Shown piece by piece: positions 34,027 through 63,804 of a stretch of DNA of 64,000 nt (its first letter is position 1; each line of letters begins with the position of its first letter). Source of the DNA: a virus. Below the pieces are notes generated by a model. That model was not told the DNA's origin. It searched no databases and was given only the letters and a program-made list of their open reading frames with translations. The stretch covers positions 1 through 64,000 of the IMG/VR virus record IMGVR_UViG_3300025137_005870; one strand, written 5' to 3'. The position numbers were made by a program, and so were the translations under genes.

Positions 34027-34353
34027 TTATTCCTCAGTCGAGACCTTTTTAGCACGCCGTCGTTGCGTAGTCTTTGGTTTCTCTTCTTTTAATATAACCT
34101 GTTTTTTAGGTTTGTCAACTGATTTCTTTTCAAAAATCCAAGTCCCGGATAACAATGACAAATTCCAGTTTTTTAACGTTGGATTTTGTATGCAGTTACC
34201 AAAAGATTTTTTGTGACTTTTTAAAATCTCAATTGCGTCTGCTAGGACAAATTTTCTTTTCCTGATGTTCTCTCGATCATTTTTTTCATATAATTCGATA
34301 TAAACTTCAAAAGTGTCTTTATTTTCTCTAACTTCTGTATTTTTAATGCTCAT
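34027..34353 (-). CDS. Hypothetical basic protein, 108 aa
   Basis: A small protein with a charged N-terminal half (NKDTFEVYIELYEKNDREN) and a very basic, Lys/Arg/Thr-rich tail (KTTQRRRAKKVSTEE). No family recognised; the tail could bind nucleic acid. It lies directly upstream of the exonuclease gene with no gap and starts inside the end of the metallopeptidase gene. A late-type ACTATTTA box sits 24 bases upstream. Confidence 0.6.
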   Translation of the reverse strand: MSIKNTEVRENKDTFEVYIELYEKNDRENIRKRKFVLADAIEILKSHKKSFGNCIQNPTLKNWNLSLLSGTWIFEKKSVDKPKKQVILKEEKPKTTQRRRAKKVSTEE

Positions 34354-35035
34354 CTGTGATCACTCCTTCTATTTTAATAAATAGTTGCGGACTAACTCTC
34401 TTTAATATTTCTCTGTCACCTAAATAATAGTTTTCAACGCCAGAGGCCCAATATTCTCTCAAACTCGTTATTGAATAAGGGCTATAAAACAACCCATTAG
34501 TTAAAGTTCTTAATTTGGGGTAACCTATATCTTGATACAAAAACATATCAAAATCTAGATCATACTCTGTATTTGAGAAATCATGTAAGATTTCTGTGTC
34601 TTGTGCAAGTAGAAGATCTTTTAGGCGCCGTCTTTTACCAAGAAACTCAGTATGAAGAGATCCATCCGCATAAATGTAGTGCCCCTCTGCTACTTCTAGA
34701 GAGTGGGCCATTTCGTGCAAAATGTTTTCTAACAAATCTCTACTATTTATGATTTTATTACTAATATATATCGCGCCATCTTTGTACAATGCTTCTAAGT
34801 CTCTTATCTCTAAAAAATCAAAAGTACCAACAATTATAGTATCCACTTCTTCAAATAAATGAGGCGGTATATTTTGTTCTAAATAATTTATTGCATCTTG
34901 AGTATCAACATCACCAACAAATGGTTCCTGCACATATAATAGTTTCCCAAACAGACGATATTCTTTTCGTAAAACCTTTTGGTCCAGTAAAGATCTTTTT
35001 ATTATATCTTCAATATTGAGTCTATTTTTATCCAT
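34343..35035 (-). CDS. Putative zinc metallopeptidase-like protein
   Basis: A 230-residue protein with LLENILHEMAHSLEVAEG at about 105-122, an HExxH zinc motif (HEMAH) in a helix. No third ligand is certain; a glutamate or histidine downstream (GSLHTEFLGKRRRL) is possible. The N-terminal 100 residues are mixed alpha/beta with no known domain. HEMAH proteins occur in phages as putative proteases of unknown target. It overlaps both neighbours. Confidence 0.6.
   Translation of the reverse strand: MDKNRLNIEDIIKRSLLDQKVLRKEYRLFGKLLYVQEPFVGDVDTQDAINYLEQNIPPHLFEEVDTIIVGTFDFLEIRDLEALYKDGAIYISNKIINSRDLLENILHEMAHSLEVAEGHYIYADGSLHTEFLGKRRRLKDLLLAQDTEILHDFSNTEYDLDFDMFLYQDIGYPKLRTLTNGLFYSPYSITSLREYWASGVENYYLGDREILKRVSPQLFIKIEGVITDEH
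34378..34385 (-). promoter_or_regulatory. Candidate late promoter box (inside metallopeptidase gene)
   Basis: Coding-strand ACTATTTA in the 3' end of the metallopeptidase gene, 24 bases before the start of the 108-residue gene. AAGGAG lies between box and start. Confidence 0.4.
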
Positions 35036-39413: not shown

Positions 39414-39726
39414 TGGAGACGGTGGGAATTGAACCCACGTCCGAAATAATTTCCAATTCAAGTCATCCACAGGCTTGGGAGATTTTTCAAAATCAACAAA
39501 ACTTTTCTGATCTTACTGTGACCAGAGACAGGTTCTTGTTTGATTTTTACAACTGATCTGTTGTTTTGATTAGATTGGATAGAAGGCTCTAATCAGCCTC
39601 CCGATTAAGCAGCTTGTGCTAAAACGAAATTGTTGTTATTGGCAACTAATTGTTTTTGATTTTTTAAGTCATCACGACTGCCTGCACTATCCTCTTTTAT
39701 CACTCCGTCGAATCCTGAACGTCCCC
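39414..39726 (-). ncRNA. ssrA: tmRNA (ssrA), phage-encoded
   Basis: A complete one-piece tmRNA of 313 bases. The 5' end starts GGGGACG at 39726 and continues TTCAGGATTCGACGGAGTG, the tmRNA signature. The 3' end has CGGACGTGGGTTCAATTCCC and ends ACCGTCTCCA at 39414; the last bases pair with the 5' end as a 7-bp acceptor stem with one G-U. The terminal CCA is not encoded, and a run of seven T follows. The internal reading frame encodes the tag. tmRNA with SmpB rescues stalled ribosomes and tags the protein for proteolysis. Phage copies are uncommon. Confidence 0.93.
39605..39643 (-). other. tmRNA tag-peptide reading frame
   Basis: Starting at the resume codon GCC (39643-39641), preceded by TTAGTT as in the family, the frame reads ANNNNFVLAQAA and stops with TAA at 39605. 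The end LAQAA keeps the small hydrophobic C-terminus recognised by ClpXP-type proteases; the Asn-run is unusual compared with the common ANDENYALAA. Confidence 0.85.
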
Positions 39727-56368: not shown

Positions 56369-56397
56369 AATATAACACGACAGGCCGTAAAAGTCAA
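56369..56397 (-). promoter_or_regulatory. Sigma70-type promoter (nuclease gene)
   Basis: Minus-strand TTGACT at 56397-56392, a 17-bp spacer and TATATT at 56374-56369, 19 bases upstream of the PD-(D/E)XK nuclease start. Confidence 0.75.
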
Positions 56398-56953
56398 GTT
56401 CATATTCTGGGATTTTTCTGTGTGGGGAGCGAATGTACTATGCCCGCGATGAGCGGGTCGCCCATATGGTACTTACAACCCGGTATATGGGGGGGAGGGG
56501 GAGGGGGGTACTAGCCGATAACGTAGGTTTAACCTTGTGGATTATTTTATTTAGTTCATTATGAAGCAGTCCCTTATAACCCTTATGCAACCTTAGCTAT
56601 CCTTTGCTATCCCTTTTCGTTTAATAAAAGTTATACACAACCTAATACAACCCTTAGAACCTTAGCTTCCCTTTAGCGATTTATGAACCATTCTCTATTG
56701 TCTGACTGGGGATAGTGCTGTTAGATCCTGCGTTACCGTGGGCTCTATTATCGTGAGTGCCTCATTCCTTCCCAGCCATAGATGTGGGCTGTAGGCTTAT
56801 GTAGGGTTGTGGATAACTTAGGGTTGCGTGAAAAAACGCGACGAGTGCGTGTGCCCTAAGTACAACCCCCTCCAACCATATACAACCAACCCCTACCCTT
56901 ATACTACCCTTACCTTACCCTATATTAAACAACGTAGCATATTTTAGACAAAG
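56398..56953. other. Non-coding region, candidate replication origin
   Basis: No gene in about 550 bases. It contains two exact matches to the DnaA-box consensus (TTATACACA at 56631-56639; TGTGGATAA, i.e. TTATCCACA on the other strand, at 56808-56816) and one near match (TGTGGATTA at 56536-56544). There is also a 5-bp stem CCCGC/GCGGG near 56445, a long G-rich tract (about 56488-56508) and many CCCTTA, CAACC and CCTTAGC units on the plus strand (56570-56690, 56855-56925). This fits an origin but could instead be a packaging or recombination site. Confidence 0.45.
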
Positions 56954-58561: not shown

Positions 58562-59887
58562 CTAAGTTGTGATTTCAAGCACTTTTTCGTGAGTCTTGAA
58601 GTAAGGTTGCGTAGCACCATAGTTATCAGTCATCCACATACGACGACACTTGCTTGGGATAGGCTTTTCAGCGCACATATCCGTGAGCACAATGTGACCA
58701 TCAAACTTGTTATCATTGACATACTGCGAAGGGGCATTAAAGCAGGTTCCACCTGACATAACACGCTCCCACTTCTTCTTCTCACCCTTCTTCCAAGTAT
58801 ATACTAGATCTTCATCAACACGAGTATCAAAGGGGACAACCACGAACTCGGCATACTTTGAAAGTTGCTCTAACTCTGCAAAGAACGCTTTGAGCATAGT
58901 ATCTGATACACTACCAGATTGGTCAATAGAGATAGCAACGCGAGCAACACGCTCGGCTCGCTTGCCTGCGTGAATGTAGGGGAAACGCTTATTAATACGC
59001 TTCACAGTGGACCGACGATTAGCCTTCTGACTGGCTTTGACGAAGGAGCGCAAAACCTTTTTCCAATCTACCTTTGTAGCGATTGAATCAACGATTTGCT
59101 TACGCATACTAGCGGATACTGAACCCCAGCCCTTAGCACCAGCCTCTTGAACTGCGTCTTTGACCATTTGCTTTAGACGCTCTTCAGCGATTTGCTGGCT
59201 TGTAGCAGCATCTTCACCAGTGGCCTCACCCCAACCACTATGGTCATCGAGAGGGTCGGCGTCACCCATACCACCACCAGAACCAGAGCCTGAGCCGCCG
59301 CTATCGTCCTGCTCTTCGTCTTCTCCGCCTTCACCTTGACCTTGACCCTCACCGTCTTCACCGTCGCCAGAAGAGTCCTTAGAGCCCTCGCTATCGTCCT
59401 CGGATGCTTGCTCGTCATCTTGAAGAATCTTGTAATAAGCATCAGCCGAAAGACCAGTTTCAAGCTCGGTAAACGGTCCACGTCCGGGGATACAGCCGTT
59501 AGTAGGGATTTCATCGGCGATATGAGTGTTGATAGCTAGGTCCGTCGCGATATTCCACAACTTGCTCATACCTTCCTCGGGCATACGGGTAGTCACATGA
59601 CCATAAATCAAGTGATAGAACTCGTGCATCAAGATACCACGAACCCAACGATAAGGATTCTCTCGGTTCTCCTTGACTTCTCCACACTCCTCGATGATAC
59701 GCTCCATAAAATCAGGATTATAAAGCATCTCAAAGCGCCCGTCCTGTGTGATGTGAACACCAGCAGTGGGAACGGAGGTTGTAGCACGCTTATCGATGCG
59801 TCGCGAAAGAGCAGCAAAGAAGGGCTCATTCTGAAGGAGCCGGTGCGTGTGAGTATTAAGGTTGAAACTAGAATCTGAGACTGTCAT
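58562..59887 (-). CDS. DUF2201-type VWA protein with HExxH domain
   Basis: A 441-residue protein; the ATG at 59887 is favoured by GGGAG six bases upstream. The N-terminal domain has RGILMHEFYHLIYGHVTTRM (HExxH zinc motif), as in DUF2201. A very acidic Gly/Asp/Ser-rich linker runs from about 165 to 220. From about 310, RVARVAISIDQSGSVSDTML is the VWA MIDAS (DxSxS), and MSGGTCFNAPSQYV and GHIVLTDMCAEKPIPSK complete the metal site. DUF2201 proteins usually sit beside MoxR AAA+ ATPases, like the gene at 60.8 kb here. Transcribed from an 11/15/17 promoter. Confidence 0.85.
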   Translation of the reverse strand: MTVSDSSFNLNTHTHRLLQNEPFFAALSRRIDKRATTSVPTAGVHITQDGRFEMLYNPDFMERIIEECGEVKENRENPYRWVRGILMHEFYHLIYGHVTTRMPEEGMSKLWNIATDLAINTHIADEIPTNGCIPGRGPFTELETGLSADAYYKILQDDEQASEDDSEGSKDSSGDGEDGEGQGQGEGGEDEEQDDSGGSGSGSGGGMGDADPLDDHSGWGEATGEDAATSQQIAEERLKQMVKDAVQEAGAKGWGSVSASMRKQIVDSIATKVDWKKVLRSFVKASQKANRRSTVKRINKRFPYIHAGKRAERVARVAISIDQSGSVSDTMLKAFFAELEQLSKYAEFVVVPFDTRVDEDLVYTWKKGEKKKWERVMSGGTCFNAPSQYVNDNKFDGHIVLTDMCAEKPIPSKCRRMWMTDNYGATQPYFKTHEKVLEITT

Positions 59888-59929
59888 TGCGTACTCCCGT
59901 GCGGGGTTCATCCCCGACCTTACATATAC

Positions 59930-59984
59930 ATTATACTACAATTTTGAGAGAAAGTAAAGGATTTTGATGTCAAGAGGATGTCAA
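59930..59984 (-). promoter_or_regulatory. Early promoter A with tandem TTGACA repeats
   Basis: Minus strand: TTGACA at 59984 and 59973 (11-bp period), -35 TTTACT at 59958 (15 bp on), a 17-bp spacer, -10 TATAAT at 59935-59930. The leader contains GGGGATGAACCCC, a small hairpin. Drives the VWA gene. Confidence 0.8.
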
Positions 59985-59994
59985 GAGAGAAAAC

Positions 59995-60201
59995 CTAGAT
60001 TCCAACTTGCATATCAGGGCCTTCCATAAGTTCTTTTAGGTTGGCTAGTTCCTGCTCTCGCTGGGCGAGGCGCAAACGTAGGCGTTTGATTAATCCTGTT
60101 TTAAGCTCCTCTTCTAAGAAGATCTCACGCAAACCTCTTATGATAGCTTTAACCTCTTCTTTCGTAAGACTTACTGGAAACCTAGCATTAACCTCGGTCA
60201 T
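59995..60201 (-). CDS. Small helical protein, 68 aa
   Basis: The ATG at 60201 has GGAG six bases upstream; the longer frame has no site. Helical and charged (starts MTEVNARFPVSLTKEEVKAI, with IKRLRLRLAQREQELANLKE later), probably a coiled coil. It overlaps the 126-residue gene by 14 bases. No family recognised. Confidence 0.6.
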   Translation of the reverse strand: MTEVNARFPVSLTKEEVKAIIRGLREIFLEEELKTGLIKRLRLRLAQREQELANLKELMEGPDMQVGI

Positions 60202-60568
60202 GGCGATCTCCATCTGGATTATCGTATGGGTCCACATGAACCTCGGACGGGAACTGTAGCGCGTTGTCACGATTGGGAGGCTCGTCGAAAGTATCGGGTT
60301 GAAGGTCAATATCCGTCTCTGGATAATAATCATCAATACCCATCTCGTCTAGCTCCGTCCAAGCGGTGATAGTCTTATAATATGCCGCTCCAAGGCGGAT
60401 AATCTCGTCACTGAAGATATTGATGTATCTAGCAGGGTCAGAACCGATGTCCATTAACACAGGTACAAGCCCGTTTTCTGTGGCCATCTCACTGATAAGT
60501 GTGCTCTGAAACAAGATAGACAAGTCTTCAGCGGCGTTTTCAAGTTGTGATTTAATTTCGTTTGTCAT
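60188..60568 (-). CDS. Hypothetical acidic protein, 126 aa
   Basis: The N-terminal half is helical (MTNEIKSQLENAAEDLSILF, then ARYINIFSDEIIRLGAAYYK). The C-terminal half is Asp/Pro-rich, probably disordered (DDYYPETDIDLQPDTFDEPP). No family recognised. Between the tiny membrane gene and the 68-residue gene. Confidence 0.6.
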   Translation of the reverse strand: MTNEIKSQLENAAEDLSILFQSTLISEMATENGLVPVLMDIGSDPARYINIFSDEIIRLGAAYYKTITAWTELDEMGIDDYYPETDIDLQPDTFDEPPNRDNALQFPSEVHVDPYDNPDGDRHDRG

Positions 60569-60576
60569 TTAATACC

Positions 60577-60666
60577 TCAGCTTACTGAAAAGATAGCTAG
60601 AAAGTGTGCAATAATAAGGGTGCTGATAAACAGCGAATCCCAATGTTGATCAATAGTGTTCCACAT
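60577..60666 (-). CDS. Tiny membrane peptide, 29 aa
   Basis: ATG at 60666 with AAGGAG ten bases upstream, stop at 60577. One hydrophobic helix (SLFISTLIIAHFLAIFSVS) makes up most of the peptide. It lies between the tRNA and the 126-residue gene in the MoxR transcription unit. Probably a single-pass membrane protein of unknown role. Confidence 0.5.
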   Translation of the reverse strand: MWNTIDQHWDSLFISTLIIAHFLAIFSVS

Positions 60667-60693
60667 AGTGTAGTTTCTCCTTGGTTAATAAAG

Positions 60694-60769
60694 TGGTGGG
60701 TTGTGTGGGATTCGAACCCACGACCATCGGATTAAAAGTCCGGTGCTCTACCAACTGAGCTAACAACCC
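60694..60769 (-). tRNA. tRNA-Lys (anticodon TTT)
   Basis: A full cloverleaf: acceptor GGGTTGT/ACAACCC, D-arm with AGCTCAGTTGGTAGAGC, anticodon arm CCGGACTTTTAATCCG with TTT, T-arm with GTGGGTTCGAATCCCAC, and an encoded 3' CCA. It lies 12 bases downstream of the MoxR gene. It decodes AAA/AAG, which suits a lysine-rich, A/T-leaning phage. Confidence 0.95.
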
Positions 60770-60781
60770 GAAAGTGTAGGT

Positions 60782-61855
60782 TTACCCTACGATCTCGACG
60801 ATGAAGTCAAGAACCTTCTGGCCATTCGATGCGGTTGCACCGTGCAGCGCGATAACATTGGAGTTATCTGCACTTGCGCCAATCGTTGCGAACAACTTCA
60901 TAGCAACTTCAGAAGGCAAAGTAACGAACCAGTCTGCGAGGTTCTGGATTTGCTCGATTGGAAGCGGACTACGGAGCACTTCACTTGCTTCCATCTTCTC
61001 AACGAGAGCAAGGTGGTCGTTGATACCGAAATCCTTGGTTGAAGCTACCTTACCGTGGACCAGAATGTCCTCGACGGTTACGATGCGCTCGTAGTTCTCA
61101 ACAAAGTCACGGAACGAAACAGCAGCTTCGAAGCCGATAAAGGCGGCAGCGAGATTGTAGAGAGGAGCAAGGTTTTGCTTAGGCTCTACGAGAAGGTTAG
61201 CGTTGCCAACGGTATCGTTGAAACGAACCCAAGACCGGCGAGAAGGATAAACCTTGTTCGGCTCGTAACCACCAGCATCTGGCTTGTGCTCTAGGTGAGC
61301 GTGGTTCTGGTTAACAAAGTCCCAAACCATAGGGTCAACCTTGCCATTCGCCCAAGTCAACCAGTCGCTGACGGTAGGCTCTACATCAAACACGGTCCAA
61401 CGGTCAAGCTCGGCAGGGTCCATCTCACCAACTTGGTAGGAAGAAGCTCCACTATGCTCGCCACCGTTGACAGCAGCGAAGATGCGAGTCTGTGGGTGCA
61501 GATGCCAACCGTTCAACTTGCGAGAATCGGTAAGTTCAAAGATACCTTGACGAACCTCCATAGTCGCACGGTCAACCTCATCAAGGAAGAGCACCACACC
61601 GTTGTCACAAGCCTCTTTGAGCCAATCGGGAGCGTTCCAGCGGGTAGACTCCCCATCGATGGAAGGAAGGCCCATAAGGTCGCCCTCGGTCATTTGAGAC
61701 GCGCGGCGTTCGACGACGGGAAGGTTGCGCTCGGCTGCAAACTGATAGACAACCTCGGATTTGCCGATGCCGTGACGCCCGCGAATAAGCACGGGGAAAC
61801 CTGCATCAATGACGTGAGCAACAACAGAGTTAAAAGTAGTGAAATCGATAGCCAT
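60782..61855 (-). CDS. MoxR-type AAA+ ATPase
   Basis: A 357-residue protein from the ATG at 61855 (GGAG nine bases upstream; a TTG further up has no site). PVLIRGRHGIGKSEVVYQFA is Walker A, VVLFLDEVDRATMEVRQGIF is Walker B, and RIFAAVNGGEHSG is the sensor 1 region; EMDPAELDRWTVFDVEP is the MoxR-like segment with the arginine. MoxR ATPases work with VWA partner proteins as chaperone-like machines. The DUF2201 VWA gene lies about 0.9 kb downstream under an identical promoter. Confidence 0.88.
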   Translation of the reverse strand: MAIDFTTFNSVVAHVIDAGFPVLIRGRHGIGKSEVVYQFAAERNLPVVERRASQMTEGDLMGLPSIDGESTRWNAPDWLKEACDNGVVLFLDEVDRATMEVRQGIFELTDSRKLNGWHLHPQTRIFAAVNGGEHSGASSYQVGEMDPAELDRWTVFDVEPTVSDWLTWANGKVDPMVWDFVNQNHAHLEHKPDAGGYEPNKVYPSRRSWVRFNDTVGNANLLVEPKQNLAPLYNLAAAFIGFEAAVSFRDFVENYERIVTVEDILVHGKVASTKDFGINDHLALVEKMEASEVLRSPLPIEQIQNLADWFVTLPSEVAMKLFATIGASADNSNVIALHGATASNGQKVLDFIVEIVG

Positions 61856-61917
61856 TGTGTGAATCTCCAGATTCAAGAGTTGAGTTCGGTGGGGACCATC
61901 CCCGACCTTACATATAT

Positions 61918-61972
61918 ATTATACTAAAATTTGAGGCAAAAGTAAAGGGTTTTTGTGTCAAGAGGATGTCAA
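61918..61972 (-). promoter_or_regulatory. Early promoter B with tandem TTGACA repeats
   Basis: Minus strand: TTGACA at 61972 and 61961, -35 TTTACT at 61946, a 17-bp spacer, TATAAT at 61923-61918. The leader contains GGGGATGGTCCCC. Drives MoxR, tRNA-Lys and the small genes after it. Confidence 0.8.
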
Positions 61973-61996
61973 GACGAGAAAGGGAGGTTAAAGCTC

Positions 61997-62713
61997 CTAG
62001 ATCGTCGTCTCAATAGTTGAAACATCTAGCTCGTCTCGAAGATCTCCGTGCCAGTCGCGGGGAATCTTGTGTCCACCCCACTCCTTATCGCGGAAAGTGT
62101 CCTTCAAACCTAGCTTACCGTCGTGATACTCGGGTGGCAGGATAGCGAAGATAGACGATTCGTCAGCTTTAACCTCAACTTTGTAGTTTTGGCCATAATC
62201 TTTGCCGCGAATATCCATTGATAGAGCGAAATCGCTGCTCCAACGGTCCTTATTGGCGTTACCCAGCCGTTCCAGAGGTAGAACGTGGAATACGCGGGCA
62301 TCCTTTTTGTGCATACTGACCTTGGACCAATCCACGGACATCACGAGGTAAAGGGTCTTTGAACCTCCCCAATTCTCGGCAGAGAGCAAAGCGCCGGGTC
62401 CAAGCCCATTTTCAAGGACTGCCTTGAGGTAGTTAGAGCGATACTCTTTGTTGCGGATGCGGTAACGCTCCATCTGTGCCTTCATTTTGGAGCATCCAGC
62501 CCGAGAATGGCCAGCCTCTCCACAGTAGGAGCAAGAGCGGTTCTTGGCGGCTGTGGCTTTACGCTGCTTCTTCCTGTCGTATGCTTCGACGGTGCCGGTC
62601 ATAATGCCTAGCTCGCGATACTCTTCGATTTTAGCCTTATACTCTGGACAACTAGACTTGTTGTGACCTGTGCCGTAGCAGTATGAACATCGGACTGTGC
62701 GCTTATAACTCAT
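61997..62713 (-). CDS. Two-zinc-knuckle (CCHC) protein
   Basis: A 238-residue protein. VRCSYCYGTGHNKSSCPEYK (about 8-27) and RSCSYCGEAGHSRAGCSKMK are two CX2CX4HX4C zinc knuckles, the retroviral-nucleocapsid type that binds single-stranded nucleic acid. The C-terminal 140 residues form a beta-rich domain (SKTLYLVMSVDWSKVSMHKK, then LSMDIRGKDYGQNYKVEVKA) without a family I know. Probably an early RNA- or ssDNA-binding protein. Confidence 0.8.
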   Translation of the reverse strand: MSYKRTVRCSYCYGTGHNKSSCPEYKAKIEEYRELGIMTGTVEAYDRKKQRKATAAKNRSCSYCGEAGHSRAGCSKMKAQMERYRIRNKEYRSNYLKAVLENGLGPGALLSAENWGGSKTLYLVMSVDWSKVSMHKKDARVFHVLPLERLGNANKDRWSSDFALSMDIRGKDYGQNYKVEVKADESSIFAILPPEYHDGKLGLKDTFRDKEWGGHKIPRDWHGDLRDELDVSTIETTI

Positions 62714-62742
62714 GTATGTATTCCTCTCCTGATTACATATAC

Positions 62743-62797
62743 ATTATACTAAATTTTGGGGCTGAAGTCAATCGATTAAATGTCAAAGAGATGTCAA
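62743..62797 (-). promoter_or_regulatory. Early promoter C with tandem TTGACA repeats
   Basis: Minus strand: TTGACA at 62797 and 62786, -35 TTGACT at 62771, a 17-bp spacer, TATAAT at 62748-62743. The first repeats overlap the end of the 40-residue gene. Drives the zinc-knuckle gene; the leader has CAGGAGAG. Confidence 0.85.
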
Positions 62798-62905
62798 GAG
62801 CCATATTACAGCTAGAGCCAGCATATTCGAGAACAGAGCAAACGACCAATAAAACGTCATCAGGCCGTTCCTCTTCTTTCGGTGGTGCGTTAGCCTACTA
62901 TTCAT
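62783..62905 (-). CDS. Tiny membrane protein, 40 aa
   Basis: ATG at 62905 directly after the stop of the 272-residue gene (TAGATG), with GGGGAAG upstream. A basic N-terminus (MNSRLTHHRKKRNG) is followed by one hydrophobic helix (FYWSFALFSNMLALAVIWLL). An internal ATG after GAGGA is also possible. Function unknown. Confidence 0.5.
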   Translation of the reverse strand: MNSRLTHHRKKRNGLMTFYWSFALFSNMLALAVIWLLTSL

Positions 62906-63724
62906 CTATCGCTTCCCCTTCTTAATCCATCGTTCTTCGACGTGAAGCGGCGATGTCTCCCCGAAGAAAAGCACAGAATAAACCTTACTTCCACGAGCAG
63001 GGCTGGTAACCGGCTTTGCTCCTACCTTTAGGACGGTTGCCAGTTTGCCCGTTCGGGTCTTGTTCTCTCCAAGAGCGGACCAAGTAACATAAAGAAGGTT
63101 AGATGGAGCGGTGGCCCGCAAAGATACCATAGAACCTACACTATAGCGAGGCTCTGCCAAGGTTGCGGCGATAACCTTGCCTGCAAACTTGTTTTCCACC
63201 ATCTTCTTATAAGCCCGCTCGGAAGGGATGAATGTGTTGTCCTCCAAAGCCTTGGTTGCAAGGTCTTTAAAGTAAGGAGGGTTAGCAAGGTAATACCGTG
63301 CTGCAATCTCCATCATCTCCCGCATCTCGGAAGTAAAGCTCGAAGCCCAACTTTCGCGCTGCTCCTGTGCTTTGTCGCTGTGTCGGTCTGCGACCTTCAC
63401 CAAAATCTCCTTTTGACGGGGAGAAAGCTCCTTACCGATAGCCATTTGATGTTTGATGCTGGTTACAAAGTTCACACCCCAAGGGTCTTGTGCAGCCTCT
63501 GCGCGAGAAATCAAGCTATCAAGGCGACTTTGCTTGTCTGCGTCGATTGCGGGAGCAGAAGCAAGTTGTTCTTGCATAATGTCCAAAGCCTGCCTTTGAC
63601 CTGCACTTAGGGTCTTTTTGTTGGTGAATTGCTCTTGAAGCGACTCGATGAAAGAGCGGCTTGAACCTTGCAAACGAGTGTCTGCGAGGATAGAGTCAAA
63701 GATTGGTTGGATACGTCTGGCCAT
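62906..63724 (-). CDS. Phage protein with two LS-x-x-Q helical repeats, 272 aa
   Basis: Two similar helical units, FTNKKTLSAGQRQALDIMQE at about 33-52 and MAIGKELSPRQKEILVKVAD at about 92-111, are followed by another helical region and a C-terminal SH3-like part (YSVGSMVSLRATAPSNLLYV, then GSKVYSVLFFGETSPLHVEE). No named family, but proteins with the LSxxQ units occur in large marine phages, from memory. A multidomain early protein of unknown role. CAGGAGAG precedes the ATG. Confidence 0.65.
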   Translation of the reverse strand: MARRIQPIFDSILADTRLQGSSRSFIESLQEQFTNKKTLSAGQRQALDIMQEQLASAPAIDADKQSRLDSLISRAEAAQDPWGVNFVTSIKHQMAIGKELSPRQKEILVKVADRHSDKAQEQRESWASSFTSEMREMMEIAARYYLANPPYFKDLATKALEDNTFIPSERAYKKMVENKFAGKVIAATLAEPRYSVGSMVSLRATAPSNLLYVTWSALGENKTRTGKLATVLKVGAKPVTSPARGSKVYSVLFFGETSPLHVEERWIKKGKR

Positions 63725-63749
63725 GTTGTTCTCTCCTGATTACATATAC

Positions 63750-63804
63750 ATTATACTAAATTTTGAGGCTAAAGTCAAGCCTTTGTTTGTCAAGTAGATG
63801 TCAA
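63750..63804 (-). promoter_or_regulatory. Early promoter D with tandem TTGACA repeats
   Basis: Minus strand: TTGACA at 63804 and 63793, -35 TTGACT at 63778, a 17-bp spacer, TATAAT at 63755-63750. Drives the 272-residue gene and the 40-residue membrane gene. Confidence 0.85.

Follow-up and report, generated by a model that had tools for sequence, protein, structure and literature searches.

We propose, with a probability of about 0.6, that a pair of TTGACA boxes upstream of certain phage promoters is the operator for a DNA-binding protein that helps RNA polymerase to switch on one block of genes. The boxed promoters form an exactly spaced, distinct class, and they are present in diverged, uncultured large phages with T4-type genes. 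The minus strand of the window (the whole stretch of 64,000 nucleotides of viral DNA that we analyzed) contains four sites of the form TTGACA-N5-TTGACA-N9-TTKACT-N17-TATAAT (Table 1). Up to three mismatches were allowed and all four sites have none; the same search of 100 dinucleotide shuffles of the window gave no matches. As the earlier note described, the layout is identical at all four promoters: the two boxes and the -35 start 11 bp and then 15 bp apart, and the spacer is 17 bp. The conserved bases that it reported behind TATAAT are there as well (GTATATGTAA at three sites and ATATATGTAA at one). What follows the -10 is no hallmark of the boxed class, since GTATATGTA is likewise found behind an unboxed promoter (at 72353).

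Table 1. Boxed promoters in the window and the genes behind them. All four promoters match the pattern exactly.
Feature	Position	Strand	Box 1	Box 2	-35	-10	Relatives
Boxed promoter, 272-residue gene	63750..63804	-	63799-63804	63788-63793	TTGACT 63773-63778	63750-63755	
272-residue gene	62906..63724	-					G006 homologue: G001 and 12/13 other cluster regions
Boxed promoter, zinc-knuckle gene	62743..62797	-	62792-62797	62781-62786	TTGACT 62766-62771	62743-62748	
Two-zinc-knuckle protein	61997..62713	-					G006 homologue: G001 and 12/13 other cluster regions
Boxed promoter, MoxR gene	61918..61972	-	61967-61972	61956-61961	TTTACT 61941-61946	61918-61923	
MoxR-type AAA ATPase	60782..61876	-					G001 and 10/13 other cluster regions
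Boxed promoter, VWA gene	59930..59984	-	59979-59984	59968-59973	TTTACT 59953-59958	59930-59935	
DUF2201 metallopeptidase-like and VWA protein	58562..59911	-					G001 and 12/13 other cluster regions

Of the four genes, the one for the zinc-knuckle protein has the motif C-x2-C-x4-H-x4-C twice and a zinc-finger match in Pfam. In the MoxR frame, the first start codon is at 61876, but translation more likely begins at the ATG at 61861; in the VWA frame, the first ATG is at 59911 and a later ATG may be the true start. The 272-residue protein has no match in Pfam. Its confident structure model (pLDDT 89.6) consists of helices followed by a beta part at the C-terminus, and this model has no match in the PDB at E ≤ 0.001.

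The idea that these genes share a regulon is well supported. The earlier note staked it on finding more copies elsewhere in the genome, and the rest of the 94.5-kb record has four further exact matches, which belong to this block (at 65868, 67061, 68315, and 69431), as well as a degenerate copy whose -10 is at 70316. Each genome has its boxed promoters in one block; this applies to the present record and to 16 relatives, which were chosen for containing an exact copy. In IMG/VR, 30 contigs carry exact copies; 16 of these were searched whole and have 3-11 near copies each, clustered and on one strand. A ribosome binding site and the start of an open reading frame lie within 250 nt downstream of 131/139 boxed promoters, versus 829/1390 random places.

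To describe the spacing, we used 314 promoters that were selected on the -35 and -10 only, with the boxes ignored. TTGACA (with at most one mismatch) starts 26 bp before the -35 in 125 of the 314 and 15 bp before it in 131. The offsets shifted by 1 bp (-25 and -14) account for 15 promoters each, and every other offset for at most 4, so the two boxes shift together with respect to the -35. We classed 139 promoters as boxed on the criterion of two boxes at 10-12 bp from each other; the distance was 11 bp 139 times, 10 bp twice, and 12 bp twice (one promoter can give several distances). The spacer between the -35 and the -10 is 17 bp in 128 of these 139, within the 16-18 bp of sigma70-type promoters, with the -35 and -10 themselves being the basis of selection.

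These genomes have two classes of promoters: boxed ones, in which the -35 does not usually end in A, and ordinary ones with TTGACA. Position 6 of the -35 is A in 11/80 boxed and 44/54 unboxed promoters (Fisher p = 1.7e-15). Within the boxes, only 2 of the 35 single mismatches over 115 sites are at position 6, and TTTACA is a variant of the second box. The three records that were covered in full have 39 strict unboxed promoters, all of them outside the boxed block. In these phages, ordinary promoters carry an A+T-rich upstream stretch. Conservation of the boxes relative to the -35 at sites that were picked by their boxes is circular, and we left it out of the evidence.

If the -10 is set at -12 to -7, then the boxes would lie at -61 to -56 and at -50 to -45. 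We suggest that the reader protein binds head to tail, with one subunit per turn, just above a sigma70-type promoter in which the last base of the -35 departs from the consensus. Most likely, it would aid the start of transcription by the host RNA polymerase, in place of the A+T-rich upstream stretch of ordinary promoters. The genes of the block would then be switched on together, perhaps early in infection, and they may serve the takeover of the host. The reader might be a host response regulator of the OmpR/PhoB family or a phage protein without a recognized regulator domain. If a host response regulator reads the boxes, then expression of phage genes would be coupled to what the host senses; a reader made by the phage would represent a new type of phage regulator. 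In either case the promoter class predicts a regulator that is yet to be found, and the motif can be used as a marker of this gene block in new contigs.

We searched for the reader in 12 phage records, which may be incomplete. At E 0.01, no response regulator receiver domain (Response_reg, PF00072) was found in them, and no Trans_reg_C domain (PF00486) was above the cut-off (there was one weak match, in G002, with 13.3 bits versus 26.2). We therefore rejected an OmpR-type regulator encoded by these 12 phage records, which leaves a host protein or an unrecognized phage protein as the reader. Scans of conserved small proteins against Pfam and PHROGs gave no clear regulator, and neither did the 103 proteins of G001, considering the best 25 of 62 and the best 25 of 91 families. 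The 272-residue protein was considered as well and set aside, given a model of helices plus a C-terminal beta part that has no match in the PDB. Short frames resembling sigma region 4 were found in 3/12 records. With tblastn, this open reading frame had no relative in G001 or G000, although both have boxed promoters (other records were covered in part), and we rejected it as the reader; a search of the phage collection gave no relative at E ≤ 0.001 either.

Most box pairs (159/187) are at promoters, and, with a permissive definition of the -10, so are 47 of the 53 exact triples. Of the 28 pairs without a -10, 18 are at or within about 2.5 kb of a C-rich noncoding element, and it is a guess that this element is a replication origin. 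In some relatives the boxes form arrays there without a -10, which hints that something besides RNA polymerase reads them: G011 has six boxes 11-12 bp apart, and G010 has five triples, including imperfect ones. So the boxes could be primarily for an iteron-like protein of replication or genome maintenance that also binds at promoters. We consider this unlikely, as at least three boxes are found near just 6 of 11 aligned elements and G000 has none. It is possible, though we would not bet on it, that an unrecognized phage protein, perhaps carried in the virion, reads the -35-like boxes both at takeover promoters and in arrays on the origin-like element. If so, the reader would tie first transcription to the start of replication.

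The operator reading has other rivals, whose odds overlap with each other and with its own. The core promoters already look good (a 17-bp spacer, often TATAAT, and TTGAC), so an activator may be needless, and such promoters would require an off switch. A phage or host protein might bind the boxes, perhaps with the -35 as a third box, and silence the block at a later stage of infection. The -35 can resemble a third box, given that some arrays without a -10 have TTGACA in third place with the same 11/15 spacing. Nevertheless, we think that a repressor is somewhat unlikely: the boxes stop at -45, above the core contacts of polymerase, and the -35 mostly lacks the last A of the box, as if binding were avoided there. 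The earlier note also allowed for tandem -35 elements, to which sigma region 4 or a phage protein resembling it would bind directly. The boxes do match the sigma70 -35 consensus as well as the -35 found in unboxed promoters, where the C in front is often shared too, and the short frames mentioned above might encode such a protein, although they lack a relative in G001 or G000. We consider tandem -35s quite unlikely because the boxes are 32 and 43 bp from the -10, they keep the last A, and they occur elsewhere in arrays without a -10. Finally, the promoters might be cassettes that spread by duplication, with boxes that have no function. The spacers of eight sites inside G000 are 76% identical, so promoter copying probably took place there. 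However, spacers are 35% identical between genomes while the boxes are retained (their 95% identity is inflated, as sites were selected with at most one mismatch per box), and the box offsets are rigid across 16 motif-bearing records, which makes this explanation very unlikely.

We scanned 84,980 species genomes using a relaxed version of the pattern and found six stretches, with no convincing bacterial promoter of this architecture among them. Four (L099 and L103 from CP070664, L101, and L102) have genes of phage type and look like phage DNA that was misbinned; the two without such genes (L100 and L104) look like chance. With blastn, the best 20 of 563 records for the region were mainly tRNA-Lys genes, and a 36-base consensus query gave nothing better than E 1 among 30 records. 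The closest terminases are from Flavobacterium phage immuto (48%) and Microcystis phage Mel-JY01 (44%). Neither of these phages has a boxed promoter, nor does Vibrio phage Va1; cyanophage S-SSM6b has a single match with two mismatches. A psbA-type gene is absent from 12 motif-bearing records, but it is also absent from Mel-JY01, so its absence is uninformative about the host. In a literature search of limited scope, we recognized no published description of this architecture.

The earlier note compared the boxes to sites of OmpR/PhoB-type activators. The geometry agrees (such operators have two direct repeats one helical turn, or 10-11 bp, apart, and 11 bp separates the two prevailing box offsets among the 314 promoters chosen regardless of boxes) and the position is compatible with activation, but the 12 phage records contain no such regulator domain over the cut-off. 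A member of this family, KdpE, has a site before kdpFABC with two 6-bp direct repeats and 5 bp between them; the phage boxes are also hexamer-N5-hexamer, and both repeats start with TT (as given in an excerpt of PMC3264566). The half-sites of KdpE are TTTATA/TTTACA with an A+T-rich spacer, while the phage boxes mostly have G at position 3, apart from variants such as TTTACA in the second box, and KdpE acts at one host operon rather than at a gene block.

In E. coli PHO promoters, the boxes have the opposite orientation to the promoter, and the phage promoters keep a real -35. According to an excerpt of PMC4415409, the PHO boxes of PhoB/PhoP are 11-base direct repeats (CTGTCAT in E. coli); the complementary strand of the phage boxes reads TGTCA-N6-TGTCA, which has the core of this sequence and the same repeat length. 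The HLR1 element of cyanobacterial RpaB is KTTACAWW-N2-KTTACAWW and activates from about -45 to -66, a position similar to that of the boxes, and TTGACATT fits KTTACAWW at 7/8 (excerpted text of PMC13421787). The period is 10 bp in HLR1, as the excerpt gives it, and 11 bp in the phage boxes, so the boxes are not HLR1 elements in this sense.

T4-type phages also have more than one promoter class that is read by the host polymerase (early and middle promoters in T4). In the middle promoters of T4, a single MotA box takes the place of the -35, whereas the boxed promoters retain their -35 and have two boxes above it.

The layout claimed in the earlier note, TTGACA-N5-TTGACA-N9-TTKACT-N17-TATAAT (two TTGACA boxes, the -35, a 17-bp spacer, and the -10), was borne out: a search of the window with up to 3 mismatches found the four promoters and none beyond them, versus no matches in 100 shuffles of the window. 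The full virus record has 94,499 bases and the window covers its first 64,000; the search for further copies that the note proposed found four more exact ones in the remainder. All eight exact copies are on the minus strand within a single 9.6-kb stretch (59930-69485), and no copy with up to 3 mismatches lies elsewhere in the record; a degenerate ninth copy has its -10 at 70316.

A scan of IMG/VR for the exact layout gave 36 stretches, spread over 30 contigs; one contig has sites that are letter-identical to those of the window record. We searched 16 of these contigs, chosen for having an exact copy, over their full length (up to 3 mismatches). Each has 3 to 11 copies, always on one strand and clustered; the clusters of records G002 and G005 span the record ends. 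The reversed pattern was absent from all 17 records searched (the 16 contigs and Vibrio phage Va1), and Va1 had no forward matches either. Motif-bearing records are up to 203 kb. Three that we compared closely, G000 (apparently the window's own record), G001, and G006, have many proteins in common (roughly 25-70% identity), have 92/93, 167/170, and 168/177 of their ORFs of at least 100 residues on one strand, and all have a tmRNA gene. The relatives' gene content includes T4-type head and baseplate genes, a PolIII-type polymerase, and GroEL.

The box positions also emerge when boxes play no part in choosing the promoters. We picked promoters by -35 and -10 alone, allowing four pentamers for the -35, six hexamers for the -10, and a spacer of 16-18 bp. 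This covered the 16 motif-bearing records (G000, G001, and G006 whole, the other 13 limited to 20-40 kb surrounding the cluster), together with two cultured relatives, Flavobacterium phage immuto and Microcystis phage Mel-JY01 (both whole). There were 314 candidates, some of which are surely chance. In 125 of them a TTGACA (at most 1 mismatch) begins 26 bp ahead of the -35, and in 131 one begins 15 bp ahead of it; the pair shifted by one base accounts for 15 and 15, and every remaining offset for at most 4. This gives 139 boxed and 175 unboxed candidates, with no boxed ones in the cultured relatives (0/36 and 0/16).

Strict promoters (TTGACN, 17 bp, TATAAT or TATATT) in the motif-bearing records fall into two classes. 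Position 6 of the -35 is A in 11/80 boxed versus 44/54 unboxed promoters (Fisher p = 1.7e-15), and A+T from -60 to -39 is 67% versus 74%. None of the strict unboxed promoters of G000, G001, and G006 (8, 19, and 12) is inside the boxed block, the gene stretch where boxed promoters cluster; looser unboxed-type matches do fall within it.

For three proteins of this block (zinc-knuckle, VWA, and 272-residue), the G006 homologue has relatives in 12 of the 13 other cluster regions, and for MoxR in 10; the two cultured relatives have none of the four. The knuckle cysteines and histidines are invariant in 15/15 aligned sequences. The 272-residue protein had no relative in the phage collection (E 0.01), and its confident structure model matched no solved structure at E ≤ 0.001. 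The block also contains a run of small ORFs, many starting MKxGDLV (record 64025-65445, minus strand; L045:25-1445). Separately, L082:17038-17739, a relative of window 34343-35035 (minus strand), matches a metalloprotease-type Pfam domain, with a score below the cut-off.

Coordinates of features in the window and in related stretches (L handles)
Feature	Location	Strand	Remark
Protein with two retroviral-type zinc knuckles	window 61997-62713	-	
tRNA-Lys(TTT) gene	window 60694-60769	-	between MoxR and VWA genes
C-rich noncoding element	window 56370-56530	-	11 aligned copies
C-rich noncoding element copies	L098:960-1120, L084:2650-2810, L148:19432-19592, others		aligned
Phage tmRNA gene	window 39414-39726	-	tag starts ANNNN
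Phage tmRNA gene	L083:5525-5864		tag starts ANNNN
Phage tmRNA gene	L098:8256-8595		tag starts ANNNN

Downstream of the boxed block is a C-rich noncoding element. Such C-runs occur in 13 motif-bearing records, of which 11 were aligned (G007 and G012 were left out, as neighbouring letters are missing); the C-runs are conserved and are followed in most copies by CCGGAA.GTATGT. The window record has matches to DnaA boxes of the TTATCCACA type at 56631 and 56816, and the element is a possible origin. At least 3 boxes are near 6 of the 11 aligned elements (12 in G010, 5 each in G001 and G011, 3 each in G003, G006, and G014); the other five have one box or none nearby (none in G000). G010 has five box triples on the 11/15-bp plan, counting imperfect ones, and G011 has six boxes spaced 11-12 bp.

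Of 187 box pairs (at most 1 mismatch) across 18 sources, 159 are followed at the expected place by a -10 with no more than one mismatch. The remaining 28 lack it, and 18 of them are at the C-rich element or up to about 2.5 kb away. In a separate scan, 47/53 exact TTGACA triples have a -10 by a loose rule; of the 6 without, three were placed: one adjoins the element (L165), and two fall in the G001 noncoding gap that lies 2.3 kb from the element, or in the counterpart of that gap (L013, L043). Boxes without a -10 near this element hint that the reader of the boxes, possibly of all three, is something besides polymerase. The earlier note also allowed that the boxes are tandem -35 elements, and their letters agree with this, but the distances and the position-6 rule do not. 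In 115 aligned boxed sites (one mismatch permitted), box position 6 takes 2/35 single mismatches, and the extended unit is C-TTGACA-TTYN-C-TTGACA-AYWT. RpaB activates from about -45 to -66 and represses when its site overlaps -38 to +23 (PMC13421787, from the portion available). The phage boxes span about -61 to -45, and together with the comparison to OmpR/PhoB-type operators, this leads us to think, with moderate confidence, that an activator would bind at the two boxes, upstream of the -35; a repressor there is possible.

The geometry fits an OmpR/PhoB-type site, but no phage-encoded regulator of this type came to light: 0/12 phage records have a receiver domain, and 0/12 have an OmpR-type DNA-binding domain above the cut-off (one weak match is below it). 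In 3/12 records there are short ORFs whose start is rich in cysteine and which have a helix-turn-helix resembling sigma region 4 (L086:1593-1853, L179, L180). Among 84,980 species genomes, 6 stretches matched, none of them convincing as a bacterial promoter with this layout. The result counts against a host regulon that keeps to the strict layout, and leaves looser host sites unaffected. CP070664, a published WOR-3 "chromosome", has several scattered stretches with the boxed promoter and phage-type genes (L099, L103); these are probably misbinned contigs.

In a limited literature search, we found no report of a phage group in which a two-box promoter class with rigid spacing defines one gene block. 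The portion of the pf16/phiPMW paper that we consulted describes ordinary TTGACA promoters and other motifs, with the boxed layout not among them (PMC5587285). Direct-repeat operators are already a known kind: in the available portions of the sources, the KdpE site is two 6-bp direct repeats with 5 bp between them (PMC3264566), and PHO boxes are two direct repeat units of 11 bases (PMC4415409). The phage boxes have the same geometry as these OmpR/PhoB-type operators.
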